A stretch of 42,761 nucleotides of DNA from Deltaproteobacteria bacterium. Its GTDB lineage: Bacteria; Myxococcota; Myxococcia; Myxococcales; JAHFDP01. The stretch lies in contig JAHFDP010000030.1 in the NCBI GenBank assembly GCA_023248955.1, positions 1 through 42,761 on the forward strand, given 5' to 3'. The notes below the pieces were generated by a model, which searched no databases, was not told where the DNA came from, and worked only from the letters and a program-made list of their open reading frames with translations. How positions within the stretch are numbered: position 1 is the first letter of the stretch; the number at the start of each line of letters is the position of its first letter. The translations under genes and the position numbers were made by a program. Shown here in pieces: positions 25,547-39,234 of the stretch.

Positions 25547-26069
25547 GAGAAGCCTCCAGGAAATCGCGCCAGCGCTGTACGAGACCGTGTCTTTGAAGAA
25601 TAGCATCGAGCTGGCCTTGATTCAGCGGTTCGCGGCCAGTCTCCAAGAGATGCTGAATTCTGAGCTTGTCCTTGGCTCGATTCGTTTGCAGCGCAATCGC
25701 GACGGCGTGTTCCGCGGAGAACACGCGCGTCCTTTGCTTTCCAACGGAAATAGATTCGGCTTGAGCCACCGCCTCCTGCAACAGTGGTGTGGTTTCCGGG
25801 AGGATCTGAACCGGGAATCCTTCGATAAGGACAGCGTCACCCTCGGGCATGTAGCCAAGCGATGCCAGGTCCGCGTAGAGCTTGTCGAGCAACACAAGCC
25901 CGCCCTGACTTGTCGGCAGATCCGCGAACACGTCGAGATCGCGCGTCTCGAAGGGCTCCGCATAGAAAACGAACGCAAAGGCCCCGCCGATCGCATAGGG
26001 CCCGATGGTGCCTTTGCGTTCGAGCTCGTTTAACCGCTCGATGATTTTTTCGAGGTCCGGCGTAGCCAC
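25539..26069 (-). CDS. AbiEii/MNT-like nucleotidyltransferase-fold protein
   Basis: The 176-residue product starts at a GTG directly after the stop of the coiled-coil gene. The fold signature is AIGGAFAFVFYAEPFETRDLDVF: Gly28-Gly29 followed by Asp44 and Asp46 as the metal-binding pair. GFPVQILP then supplies the central strand, and FSAEHAVAIALQTNRAKDKLRI the C-terminal helix with Lys-Asp, all typical of the AbiEii/MNT group of nucleotidyltransferases. Members include toxins of type IV and HEPN/MNT systems, but also uncharacterised housekeeping proteins. The neighbouring coiled-coil and small basic proteins look like its partners. No HEPN protein is present. Confidence 0.75.
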   Translation of the reverse strand: MATPDLEKIIERLNELERKGTIGPYAIGGAFAFVFYAEPFETRDLDVFADLPTSQGGLVLLDKLYADLASLGYMPEGDAVLIEGFPVQILPETTPLLQEAVAQAESISVGKQRTRVFSAEHAVAIALQTNRAKDKLRIQHLLETGREPLNQGQLDAILQRHGLVQRWRDFLEASRG

Positions 26070-34918: not shown

Positions 34919-37900
34919 GTGCGAACCCATATTCCGGTTGTGGTGCTAGCGTCGCTCTTTGCGTGCGATCGGCCCTCCGGACCTGAGGTGAAAGCGCCGA
35001 ATTTCGGCGTCGCTCGCTCCGCCTCTAGTCCGACGCTCTCACCGGCCAACGTTACGCTTTCGCAGGCCCAGACGCAGACCTTCACGGCAGCCGGATCTGG
35101 CCCTTTCACCTGGGCGCTGCAAGGCGGTGCTTCCGGCACCATTGCTAGCAGCGGCAGTACGACGGCTCTCTACACTGCCGGCAGCCCCGGTTCGGCGGGG
35201 GCGACGGATACGGTAACTGTGACCGACACGGGAGCCAGCAACACCACGGCTTCGGCAACCGTGACCATCTCCAAAGGCATCAACAGTTTCGCCAACTACA
35301 ACGGCTCGGGGCTTGTGAACGGCAATGGCTTTCAACTTCAAAACAACACCCGTGTCGTCCAACGGGTTGGGCAAACGTTTCAGGCGCAGTCACCCTGCTG
35401 CGGCGATACGACTGGGATGGTGACGTTCGTTCAGGTTGACATGATTCGGACAGCGGGTGGCGGTGGGCAAAACATCAAGGCGGAAATTCACAGCCTGACC
35501 GGCTCCGGTGGAATTGACGACCAGGGTGCGTCCAACGCCTACTCCACGGGATCGGTCGGCGCAACGACGGCGATTCCGACGCTCGGCACCAAGACGAAAG
35601 TTCTCATTCCCATGACGCCAGGAACCGCGCTCACCGTTGGCACCAACTATGCCCTAACGATCAAGCTAGATGTGGCGGGAACGTTCGTTGGATCGGTTGT
35701 GGCGACCGATGCCAACGGCGGTGTGGGCTGGTGGTTCAGCAAGCGCTATCTTGCGGGTGGTTTTGTGGCGCGTGGAGTTTTCACTTCTCTTCCTGCGGAT
35801 TATACGAAAGATACTGCACACAGTGTCTCAGCTAACATTTTCATCGGCGAGGTATACCCGGCGCCGACGACATCCAGCATCGCTCCGACGTCGATATTGC
35901 ACGGCTCCTCCGGCATTACGCTGACCGTGAACGGTACAAACTTTTTCGGATCCTCCACGGTCAAATGGGCTGGCGCGGCACGAACCACGACCTACGTCAG
36001 TTCGACCAAGCTCACTGCTGCGATCACCACCGCTGACCTGGTTACGGCGGGAACCTATGCGGTCACGGTGACCACACCGGCGCCCGGTGGTGGAACAACT
36101 TCAGCGATTAACTTCAGCGTCTCAGCGGGCAACGGCGATGTGATTTCAACCTCTGCGGGAGGGGATAATCCGCCTGCCTCGACCTTGGCCACCAGCTGGT
36201 CCGCGGGTGGCATCGGCGGGGTTGTTACCGATACAAGCGGCAATGTTTTCTACACGGACGGGACCTACTCATCCATCTTTAAGGTCGACTCAAGTGGGAA
36301 CGTCCACCTTTTCGCTGGCAGCAGCTCCCTCGGTTTTTCGGGAGATGGCGGCGCTGCGACAGCCGCACAACTCCAGTGCAGCAACAATGGTTCAAACTTC
36401 CAATGCACGCTCGCTGTCGATAGCTCCGGCAACGTTTTTATTGTGGATAGGCGCAGCGAGCGGGTGCGCATGGTGCCTGCTGCAACAGGAACCAATTACG
36501 GCCAATCGATGACCGCCAATTCCATTTATACCGTTGTCGGTGGTGGCTCGCAGGATTTCGCGGGCGATGCGGCGGCAGCGACGAGTGCGGGCGTCGATCC
36601 GTATGGAGTCGCCATCGATAGCTCGGGCAACATTTATGTCGCGGACCGGAAAAACCATCGTATTCGAATGGTTCCCAAAACAACGGGAACTTATTTTGGT
36701 CAATCGATGACAGCGAATTACATCTATACGATTGCGGGTACGGGCACGAATAGTTTTTCCGGCGATTCGGGTATTGCCACCTCCGGGACGCTCGGTTCCC
36801 CTTATGGCGTGGGTGTCGACAGTTCCGGCAACGTCTATATTGCGGATACCGGAAACAATCGAATTCGAATGGTTCCCAAAACGACGGGAACCTATTTCGG
36901 TCAATCGATGACCGCCAGTAATATTTATACTGTCGCTGGCAATGGTGCGACCTCGTTTGCCGGAGATGGTGGTGCCGCAACGTCGGCCGCGGTCAATGAT
37001 CCCTTGGGTGTAGTCGCTGATAGCGCAGGACATCTTTATATTGCCGATTACAACAATCGCATCCGAATGGTGGCGAAGACCACGGGCACCTATTTTGGCC
37101 AATCGATGACAGCCAATGATATCTATACGATAGCCGGCAATGGGTCTGGAAGCAGTTCGGGGGATGGAGCGGTGGCCACCTCCGGCTCGCTTTATCCCTA
37201 TACGGTTGCAGTCGACAGCTCGGGGAATGTGTACGCGGCGGATCAGAACGGTAACAAAGTGCGGATGATTCCTGCTGCAACCGGGACCAACTTTGGCCAA
37301 TCTATGACGGGCAGTTACATCTATACCGTTGCCGGCAATGGGACCCTGGGTTTTACGGGCGACGCTTTGGCGGCAAACGTGGGCGGCATTTCGGGACCAA
37401 CGGGTGTGGCGTTGGACAGTTCGGATAACGTCTATCTTTCAGACGAGGGAAATCATCGCATTCGGATGGTCCCCAAAACGACGGGAACCTATTTTGGCCA
37501 ATCGATGACCGCAAACAGTATGTACACGATCGCTGGCACCGGCGCGCAGGGCTTTTTGGGAGATGGCGCGGCCGCCACCTCGGCAAAAATAAACGGTCCG
37601 TCCGCGCTCACACTTGATAGCTCGGGAAACGTCTACTTCGCGGATTACAATAACCACCGCATTCGGGTCATTGCGAAAACGACGGCGACCAATTTTGGTC
37701 AATCGATGACGGCAAATAATATCTACACCGTTGCGGGCAATGGTAGCGCGACCTTCGCAGGAGATGGGGCGGCCGCGACTTCTGGGTCCCTCAATTATCC
37801 GGTTGGAGTGGTCTTCGACAGCGCGGGAAATCTGATCATTGGAGACGATTCCAACAACCGGATTCGAATGGTTGCCGCAGCAACGGCAACCAACTTCGGT

Positions 37901-38440
37901 CAATCGATGACAGCAAATTACATCTATACGATCGCGGGTAATGGCACGGGCGCCTTTGGCGGTGATGGCTCCGCGGCGACCTCTGGTAGTATCCAAGGTC
38001 CGCACGGAGTAGCGATCGACAGCAGTGGGAATCTCGTCATCGCGGATCGGTACAACAATCGCGTTCGAATGGTCTGCAAAACAACCGGAACCTACTTCGG
38101 CGTATCGATGACTGCCAACAGCATTTATACGATTATCGATACTGGTAATGTGAACAACCCGAAGGGTGTGACGGTCGATAGTTCAGGCAACCTGCTGGTG
38201 ACCGACACCTATGGTCATCGCGTTCGAATGGTTCCAAAAACGACCGGAACCTATTTCACGATTTCAATGACTGCCAATAGCATCTACACGATCGCCGGTA
38301 ACGGAACGAATGCCTTTGCAGGGGACAGCGGGGCCGGCACCTCCGCGTCGCTCGACAATCCCTCCGGGCTTGCTTTCGATAGCTCGGGGAATCTCTATGT
38401 TGCGGACTATTCGAATGGCAGAATTCGCCTTTTGCAGTGA
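34919..38440 (+). CDS. Large lipoprotein with Ig-like, IPT/TIG and tandem NHL-type repeats
   Basis: The 1173-residue product starts at GTG with GGGAG upstream. A signal peptide ends in a lipobox-like site (LASLFAC, Cys16). Then come a Ser/Thr-rich Ig-like region (about 35-120), a jelly-roll-like unit (about 120-310), an IPT/TIG domain (about 312-400, SSIAPTSILHGSSGITLTV) and, from about 430, NHL-type blades. Ten copies of a block like TGTYFGQSMTANYIYTIAG recur about every 67 residues, each followed by GDG-type, GVxxDSSGNxYxAD and NRIRMV strands. A surface or extracellular beta propeller binding a ligand or other protein is likely. No enzyme motif is seen. The ten copies may form one large or two smaller propellers. 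Confidence 0.85.
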   Translation: MRTHIPVVVLASLFACDRPSGPEVKAPNFGVARSASSPTLSPANVTLSQAQTQTFTAAGSGPFTWALQGGASGTIASSGSTTALYTAGSPGSAGATDTVTVTDTGASNTTASATVTISKGINSFANYNGSGLVNGNGFQLQNNTRVVQRVGQTFQAQSPCCGDTTGMVTFVQVDMIRTAGGGGQNIKAEIHSLTGSGGIDDQGASNAYSTGSVGATTAIPTLGTKTKVLIPMTPGTALTVGTNYALTIKLDVAGTFVGSVVATDANGGVGWWFSKRYLAGGFVARGVFTSLPADYTKDTAHSVSANIFIGEVYPAPTTSSIAPTSILHGSSGITLTVNGTNFFGSSTVKWAGAARTTTYVSSTKLTAAITTADLVTAGTYAVTVTTPAPGGGTTSAINFSVSAGNGDVISTSAGGDNPPASTLATSWSAGGIGGVVTDTSGNVFYTDGTYSSIFKVDSSGNVHLFAGSSSLGFSGDGGAATAAQLQCSNNGSNFQCTLAVDSSGNVFIVDRRSERVRMVPAATGTNYGQSMTANSIYTVVGGGSQDFAGDAAAATSAGVDPYGVAIDSSGNIYVADRKNHRIRMVPKTTGTYFGQSMTANYIYTIAGTGTNSFSGDSGIATSGTLGSPYGVGVDSSGNVYIADTGNNRIRMVPKTTGTYFGQSMTASNIYTVAGNGATSFAGDGGAATSAAVNDPLGVVADSAGHLYIADYNNRIRMVAKTTGTYFGQSMTANDIYTIAGNGSGSSSGDGAVATSGSLYPYTVAVDSSGNVYAADQNGNKVRMIPAATGTNFGQSMTGSYIYTVAGNGTLGFTGDALAANVGGISGPTGVALDSSDNVYLSDEGNHRIRMVPKTTGTYFGQSMTANSMYTIAGTGAQGFLGDGAAATSAKINGPSALTLDSSGNVYFADYNNHRIRVIAKTTATNFGQSMTANNIYTVAGNGSATFAGDGAAATSGSLNYPVGVVFDSAGNLIIGDDSNNRIRMVAAATATNFGQSMTANYIYTIAGNGTGAFGGDGSAATSGSIQGPHGVAIDSSGNLVIADRYNNRVRMVCKTTGTYFGVSMTANSIYTIIDTGNVNNPKGVTVDSSGNLLVTDTYGHRVRMVPKTTGTYFTISMTANSIYTIAGNGTNAFAGDSGAGTSASLDNPSGLAFDSSGNLYVADYSNGRIRLLQ
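36482..38437 (+). repeat. Coding tandem repeats, ten units of about 200 bp
   Basis: DNA-level repeats inside the NHL gene. A core such as GGTCAATCGATGAC or a close variant recurs about every 200 bp, near 36500, 36700, 36900, 37100, 37300 and so on, with the last two copies most diverged. The reading frame is kept throughout, so copy number could change by recombination without loss of frame. Confidence 0.75.
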
Positions 38441-38478
38441 TGCTATCCTTCGGCCGTCCACTCGCTCAAATCCTTAGC

Positions 38479-38643
38479 GCCCGCGACAAAACAAATGTAT
38501 CAACTATAAGTTGAGTATCCGTTCAGTCCGGCACACCAGTCGTCATGGCCGGCCGCCGATCCCCGGGTCAATCCCGGCCATGACGGACTGAACGGATACT
38601 GAGTTGAGTATACTGTAGTTGATACATTTGTTTTGTCGCGGGC
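38479..38643. repeat. Long interrupted palindrome (MITE-like or RNA-forming element)
   Basis: Three nested inverted-repeat arms are visible. The outer arm of 28 bp (38479-38506) is the exact reverse complement of 38616-38643. A middle arm of 14 bp (38516-38529) pairs with 38585-38598, and an inner arm of 12 bp (38541-38552) pairs with 38574-38585. The loop is 38553-38573. Short unpaired insertions separate the arms, including a GTTGAGTAT that occurs on both sides in the same orientation. The element sits between two convergent genes, so it could end transcription from both sides. Its length and perfect outer arm suggest a small mobile or repeated element rather than a simple terminator. No target duplication is clear. 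Confidence 0.75.
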
Positions 38644-38670
38644 CCTTACTCGACAAACTTCCGAGAAAAC

Positions 38671-39234
38671 CTAGCAGCCGTCTGCACAATGGCCGATTTG
38701 GTCGAAGCATGCGCCGTTGACGCAGAAACCCCCTTCTGCGCAGTCGACGTCCATGATGCACGATTTTCGCGTGCAGACCGATGAGGCACAGGTGAAGAAA
38801 TTGCGCGGGCAGTCGGGTTGAACACCGCAGGGGTTTTGTACACACGTTCCGTTGGTGCAGGACTGTCCAGGTCCACAACTCTTCTCGCTGCAAGGGTTGC
38901 AATGTCCGCCGGAGCAGGCGGCCGAATAGGGCGTTGCGCAATGCAGGCAGGGCCCGTGACAATCGGAGTTGATGCGGCATTCACCGGATTCGAGGCCACC
39001 ATCGATTTTAGTTCCGGCGTCTTCCATGTTTGACGCGTCCGCAGCGCCCCCATCAGAAGCAGCGTCGGCGGAAGCATCGGCCACGCTGCCGTCTGAAGCA
39101 TCTGCCCGCCCGCTATCCGCCACACCGCCGTCATCGGCAACGCCACTATTCTCAATAGCGGGTTGTTGATTCGAGCGTGGAGTGCACGCACCAAAGGCAA
39201 TGGTCAAAGCGCAGCAAAAAAAGGGCGATCGCAT
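38671..39234 (-). CDS. Cys-rich lipoprotein with low-complexity linker
   Basis: The 187-residue product has a signal peptide with lipobox FGAC (Cys17). A linker of about 60 residues rich in Asp, Ala, Ser and Gly follows (DGSVADASADAASDGGAADA), then about 100 residues with some 20 Cys in EGF-like or Dickkopf-like spacing (CGPGQSCTNGTCVQNPC, DCAEGGFCVNGACFD). Such proteins are frequent at the surface of Myxococcota. The exact function is unknown. The overlapping minus-strand frame from 39200 has no such structure and is a shadow. The stop is 28 bases from the palindromic element. Confidence 0.75.
   Translation of the reverse strand: MRSPFFCCALTIAFGACTPRSNQQPAIENSGVADDGGVADSGRADASDGSVADASADAASDGGAADASNMEDAGTKIDGGLESGECRINSDCHGPCLHCATPYSAACSGGHCNPCSEKSCGPGQSCTNGTCVQNPCGVQPDCPRNFFTCASSVCTRKSCIMDVDCAEGGFCVNGACFDQIGHCADGC

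Follow-up and report, generated by a model that had tools for sequence, protein, structure and literature searches.

A probable IS66-type MITE in the loop of a palindrome between convergent genes that is itself probably a second MITE

The nested hairpin and its setting

The window, i.e. the whole stretch of 42,761 nucleotides that was analysed, carries a set of nested inverted repeats at 38479–38643, between two convergent open reading frames (ORFs) as the original prediction had placed it. The plus-strand ORF, which Pfam identifies as an NHL-repeat protein, stops at 38440, 38 nt ahead of the 28-bp left arm, and the minus-strand ORF (38671–39234) ends 27 nt past the 28-bp right outer arm. The minus-strand protein gave no Pfam match at E 0.001; it has the start AFGAC, which we take to be lipobox-like. 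The features discussed below are as follows.

34919–38440, plus strand: convergent ORF of an NHL-repeat protein, with a putative start codon (ORF reading, Pfam)
38474–38476, no strand: left 3-bp duplication TTA of the outer element, identical to 38646–38648
38477–38645, no strand: outer element, most likely a second MITE; 169 bp long with the insert and 76 bp once this is taken out; ends agreeing with those of an element in genome G076 at 16 and 17 of 19 bases; sole copy in its own genome
38479–38506, no strand: left outer arm as predicted, 28/28 complementary to 38616–38643
38507–38514, no strand: left copy of the inner element's 8-bp duplication, TAAGTTGA, situated in the outer element's loop; 7/8 identical to 38600–38607
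38515–38599, plus strand: inner element, a probable IS66-type MITE of 85 bp, derived by internal deletion from a 137-bp element (dispersed family; deletion geometry)
38515–38530, plus strand: left inverted end GTATCCGTTCAGTCCG (exact pattern match)
38541–38552, plus strand: left half of the fused CGTC-REP stem, CGTCATGGCCGG, 12/12 complementary to 38574–38585
38563–38577, plus strand: deletion joint, the remaining copy of a 15-bp direct repeat, CCGGGTCAATCCCGG, with one base changed; the repeat occurs twice, 52 bp apart, in the full-length copy
38574–38585, plus strand: right half of the fused CGTC-REP stem, CCGGCCATGACG, complementary to 38541–38552
38584–38599, minus strand: right inverted end, GTATCCGTTCAGTCCG on the minus strand (exact pattern match)
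38600–38607, no strand: right 8-bp duplication of the inner element, TGAGTTGA, 7/8 against 38507–38514
38608–38615, no strand: remainder of the outer element's loop, GTATACTG; joined, the empty site has a 16-nt loop
38616–38643, no strand: right outer arm as predicted, complementary to 38479–38506
38646–38648, no strand: right 3-bp duplication TTA of the outer element, identical to 38474–38476
38671–39234, minus strand: convergent ORF of a Cys-rich putative lipoprotein (ORF reading, lipobox-like start)

On direct reading, the outer arms pair at all 28 predicted positions and extend to 31-nt arms at 97%. The middle arms (38514–38530 and 38584–38600) are perfect over 17 bp rather than the 14 bp first given, and the inner arms pair over the full 12 bp that had been called. 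The hairpin strand folds as DNA at −64 kcal/mol compared to a shuffle mean of −21.3 (z −13.8; 0/200 shuffles) and as RNA at −106 compared to −48.3 (z −14.2; 0/200 shuffles). The locus is therefore one long hairpin in both folds, as had been proposed, but its three arms belong to two nested elements rather than to one, as set out below. A census of 443 kb of the same genome (the window plus 20 stretches of 20 kb; perfect arms of at least 14 bp, loops of at most 80) found 12 hairpins with a longest arm of 19 bp, and none in three first-order Markov versions. The outer pair falls outside the loop limit of this census, with 109 nt between its arms, or a loop of 16 nt without the inner element.

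Other repeats were observed in the same genome (G000). An inverted repeat at 25970–26022 of the window pairs 16-nt arms (94%) across a loop of 21 nt. Another palindrome, CAAGAGTTGTCGAT around a 7–8 nt loop (TAATTGCC-like), is dispersed over eight places (C11:22200, C29:91, C32:41773, C58:1061, C71:19277, C71:29210, C82:16488, and C112:53727), with 0 in the reversed control. Hairpins at L141 13167–13256 and L149 6323–6410 have a common arm, TTCCGTGCGGTGCG, and different loops, and are possibly another repeat.

The dispersed inner element and the single-copy outer palindrome

The genome that holds the locus is a 3.83-Mb draft in 116 contigs, 95.6% complete. Searching it with 38470–38650 gave 114 matching pieces, grouped into at least 40 places, a lower bound since 40 of 103 first-look candidates were scored; an end-pattern search added three further places of the inner element. 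All listed matches outside the locus lie between the outer arms (query 39–136 of 181). The search for further arm copies that had been suggested thus came out differently for the different arms: the middle and inner arms are dispersed, whereas the outer arms are single copy.

To score the ends, sequence-identical copies were merged and only places with a second end were considered for duplications; from 36 pairings, one chance pairing (L092) and seven longer than 170 bp were dropped. Nine of the 28 two-ended copies are 137 bp long and the others 58–163 bp, so that the element has the dimensions of a MITE: short, without room for a transposase, and in many copies. Its terminal inverted repeats are GTAWCCGTTCAGTCCG at both ends. 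The left end reads GTATCC in 20/28 copies, and the right end GTAACC in 13/28 and GTATCC in 2/28; the copy in the window has GTATCC at both ends.

The 8-bp flanks of the 28 distinct two-ended copies are identical at 8/8 positions in 14 copies, at 7/8 in four (the window copy, with one mismatch in its duplication, is one of these), at 6/8 in two, and at 5/8 or fewer in eight. In 756 control pairings between different copies, 7/8 was seen once and 6/8 six times. A target-site duplication at 7/8 or 8/8 is thus present in 18/28 copies, and some of the low-scoring flank pairs look like ends misplaced by fuzzy matching. The G+C content is 36% in the 8-mers of the 18 best copies compared to 51% in the flanks of the 28 copies. 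When 20 empty sites were rebuilt, that of the window alone lay in a long palindrome (stem of at least 24 bp), and the longest stems of the other 19 were 3–10 bp. With one case in 20, palindromes are not supported as a regular target of the inner MITE, and a one-off event accounts for the nesting better than a rule of targeting would.

Among the copies, L002 (G000:C34:53841–53978) is an inner-type MITE inserted next to a hairpin, perhaps a terminator, whose GC-rich stem is 10 bp long. The copies L018 and L082 are each followed by a stretch of about 200 bp that is similar by eye, suggesting a larger repeated unit containing the MITE.

Across 60 genomes, the inner MITE was found in its own genome only, with a weak 40-bp match in G001 and no match in G010. 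A plasmid search with a query including the outer arms matched four records, in the core only, and viral contigs gave 0 matches for an outer-arm 20-mer and 0 for the inner-end pattern. A lone match in a collection of genome contigs (L123; the collection may omit the window's own or very near records) has one end only, in an apparently coding stretch, and was taken as chance. The own genome is the only member of its family among the genomes compared, and therefore no sister locus settles the order of events.

The joined outer palindrome was compared with 145 genomes of the order. It matched its own locus and nothing elsewhere below E 0.03; 66/145 genomes had some match at E ≤10, and six weak matches fell in one genome of the same order, G076. 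These matches are the ends of a dispersed element of 157–158 bp, GGGCCCGCCACAAAATAAA and its reverse, and in the fetched loci each of the 12 distinct two-ended copies sits between two identical triplets, TTA or TAA. The ends of the outer palindrome in the window, GCGCCCGCGACAAAACAAA and GGGCCCGCGACAAAACAAA, are like the G076 ends at 16 and 17 of 19 bases, and the palindrome is flanked by TTA on both sides, a 3-bp duplication that is short and weak evidence taken alone. With one mismatch allowed, the end pattern gave, across 195 genomes of the phylum, 43 matches in G076, two in the own genome (the ends of this element) and one in G148, with two in the reversed control; with three mismatches, G076 gave 59 matches compared to six in the control. 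The likeness is confined to the ends, and the lengths of the two elements differ. The G076 loci that were inspected showed neither a transposase bearing such ends nor a second end at IS distance. A single, unconserved copy, which had been named as speaking against a mobile element, is what the own genome holds for the outer arms, one copy only; like ends, however, are dispersed in G076. The likeness to the G076 ends, together with the flanking TTA, makes a second, single-copy MITE with a 3-bp TNA duplication the most likely identity of the outer palindrome.

Copies of the G076 element include L195, L196, L198–L200, L206, L211, L212, L214, and L217–L219, with ends GGGCCCGCCACAAAATAAAC. Several G076 ends lie about 105–190 bases from contig starts, as if repeats broke the assembly.

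Two other explanations of the outer arms were weighed. The outer palindrome may be a non-mobile hairpin at the transcript ends, either a terminator or a 3′-protecting stem, older than the inner MITE. The outer element (38477–38645) lies 36 nt past the plus-strand stop and 25 nt ahead of the minus-strand stop and is symmetric, as would befit such a role, but no terminator-like site (GC-rich stem plus T run) was found on either strand in 38380–38740, and the ends with their TTA flanks match the dispersed G076 element. We regard this origin as unlikely; a MITE could, however, have taken on a transcript-end role afterwards. It is distinctly improbable that the outer arms are younger than the inner MITE and arose by template switching at its hairpin, with one flank being copied in inverted form. 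Such a switch would account for outer arms that are perfect at 28/28 although the duplication that they enclose has a mismatch, and for the GTATCC at both ends of the window copy, since this right end is otherwise rare, but it leaves the likeness to the G076 ends and the two-sided TTA unexplained. A second MITE therefore stays the preferred account of the outer palindrome.

IS66-type ends and CGTC REP cargo

To place the inner element, its ends were compared with IS66 loci in relatives of the order; the 30 loci fetched are fewer than all IS66 matches listed there. Fourteen of the 30 have inverted ends starting with GTA and a perfect 8-bp duplication, and these ends (for example, GTAACCGTCCGGCCAACGAC and GTATCCGTCCAGCGACTCGC) are alike at 14–20 of 20 positions. 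In the remaining loci, 6/30 have only non-GTA pairs and 10/30 no pairs. The exact 14-bp end of the inner element was found 36 times in its own genome, four times in G010, and once each in G052, G092, G159, and G193 across the 195 phylum genomes, and its reversed control gave two matches over all 195. For two of the four G010 ends, an IS66 transposase match is only about 155 or 425 bp away, respectively. Likeness among the four end regions runs as far as GTAACC and is lost outside it; no two-ended IS66 copy was seen in G010, where contigs break.

Neither IS66 transposase (PF03050) nor IS66 TnpB (PF05717) had a match in the own draft genome, from which we infer that the IS66 partner of the inner MITE was lost, is unassembled or lies elsewhere. 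A transposase with matching ends, for which the original prediction had proposed a search, was thus not found in the own genome among the IS66 families sought there; ends of the same kind occur near IS66 matches in G010. These sequence data are consistent with an inner element that is moved by an IS66 transposase in trans, or was so in the past.

Other families also make 8-bp duplications, e.g. ISL3 and IS256, and the inner MITE could belong to one of them, with its IS66-like ends a coincidence. The own genome, without an IS66 transposase match (only IS66 families were sought), would fit this; the end sequence and the duplication length, however, both agree with the IS66 elements of relatives, and in G010 the exact 14-bp end is found next to matches to the IS66 transposase. 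We therefore consider such an assignment very improbable and retain the IS66 type for the inner element.

One side of a full-length copy carries CGTCATGGCCGGGCTTGACCCGGCCATCCACG, and its inverted partner on the opposite side is altered. In the full-length copy L004, the unit reads CGTC-ATGGCCGGG-CTTGA-CCCGGCCAT-CCA, which agrees with the definition of a CGTC REP, i.e. a CGTC tag, an 8–9 bp stem beginning with a complementary AT, a loop of 4–5, and a CCA tail, in the published description (PMC3733652). The full-length element also contains a 15-bp direct repeat, CCGGGTCAAGCCCGG, twice, 52 bp apart. As 137 − 52 = 85, the window copy has lost 52 bp by deletion between the two repeats, and the 12-bp inner arm is the product of the resulting REP fusion; an intact CGTC REP is accordingly not found in this copy.

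Searched against plasmids, the 137-bp query matched with pieces of 23–32% of its length at 85–97% identity in the 20 records listed of 22. The hosts of these REP-unit pieces include Rhizobium, Shinella, Chelatococcus, Methylosinus, and others, which we take to be almost all Alphaproteobacteria. In 18 of the 20 listed records the match lies under no listed gene. The two plasmid matches viewed with their surroundings are inverted dimers of the same build as the CGTC REP pair, and no IS66-type ends were seen around these two dimers in 160 nt. CGTC-type REPs without IS66-type ends also occur in the own genome, at L134 (minus strand, from about 3720) and at L149 13831–13892; the latter consists of two REPs with different stems joined tail to tail.

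CGTC-tagged REPs were reported in 2013 as being without a dedicated transposase (PMC3733652). It is a tentative possibility that IS66-type MITEs are the vehicle by which CGTC-tagged REPs are dispersed, the lone CGTC REPs in the same genome being either eroded MITEs or the sequences from which the cargo was drawn. If true, this would answer the published question of how such REPs spread. As inverted CGTC REP pairs lie here between IS66-type ends with clear 8-bp duplications, the way they spread through this genome can be linked to a named transposase family and tested, and the REP cargo is the part worth following. In the literature searched for IS66 MITEs and for CGTC REPs in MITEs, no title or start of an abstract among the matches listed described an IS66-type MITE with CGTC REPs, and a text search for the REP core letters yielded no title on the subject among the matches listed. 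The word IS66 is absent from the review PMC10969869.

Overall explanation and known systems

Taken together, our data suggest, with a probability of about 0.8, that a MITE of IS66 type lies within the loop of a second MITE between convergent genes. In the proposed order, a 76-bp, nearly perfect palindromic MITE would first have transposed into the gap between the convergent genes, duplicating TTA. Later, an IS66-type MITE with GTAWCCGTTCAGTCC ends would have entered its 16-nt loop and duplicated 8 bp, as the ends, the duplication and the position attest, probably through an IS66-family transposase acting in trans. The inner element bears a pair of CGTC-tagged REPs in inverted orientation, and in this copy the 52-bp loss between the 15-bp repeats, which fused the REPs, came before or after insertion. 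The stack folds as one hairpin and, if transcribed, would lend structure to the 3′ ends of the two convergent transcripts. That the whole structure is a single mobile unit or a single family of structured RNA, the view first taken of this locus, is extremely improbable and was rejected: it folds as a single hairpin, but family copies stop at the ends of the inner MITE, with matches confined between the outer arms, 19 of the 20 rebuilt empty sites have stems of 3–10 bp compared to at least 24 bp here, and no Rfam family was found at its cut-off in the window.

Among the guesses of MITE, repeated extragenic palindrome, and structured RNA made at the outset, that of a MITE fits twice, once for the middle and inner arms together and once for the outer arms, and that of a repeated extragenic palindrome suits the innermost arm, which is the fused REP pair. 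Both elements are new families, ordinary in kind.

The inner element resembles IS66-family insertion sequences in its ends, GTAA or GTAT followed by CCGT, in its 8-bp duplication, and in an exact 14-bp end that occurs beside IS66 transposase matches in G010; it differs from them in being at most 137 bp long and without a transposase. Two IS66 rows in a table of PMC3281130 carry the number 8, read here as the duplication length. For the outer element, the nearest lead is the IS1031 group of the IS5 family, which in the passage concerned prefers TNA with a 3-bp duplication (PMC12016507). The outer element is alike in its TNA and 3-bp duplication, whereas the ends quoted there start with GAACCTG and those of the outer element with GCGCCCG/GGGCCCG; the group may serve as a lead, not as a membership.

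The REP cargo is like the CGTC-tagged REPs with a 9-bp stem and 5-nt loop, as described in part of PMC3733652, in its CGTC tag, its stem ATGGCCGGG/CCCGGCCAT, its loop CTTGA, its CCA tail and its inverted dimers; a difference is that the dimer here lies as cargo within IS66-type ends that are flanked by 8-bp duplications. The CGTC-1 dimers of Halothiobacillus neapolitanus, which lie in 41-bp palindromes, are likewise enclosed by a longer inverted repeat, but their outer consensus starts with GGG, and a target duplication is not given in that section (PMC3733652). QMITE2 of Coxiella burnetii, in the portion of PMC5896051 that concerns it, is also a MITE with direct repeats (7–11 nt) that contains a REP, although its REP is GTAG and not CGTC. 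Finally, the nested pneumococcal repeats BOX, RUP, and SPRITE, as presented in part of PMC10969869, are miniature elements inserted into one another like the two at this locus, and belong to other element families.
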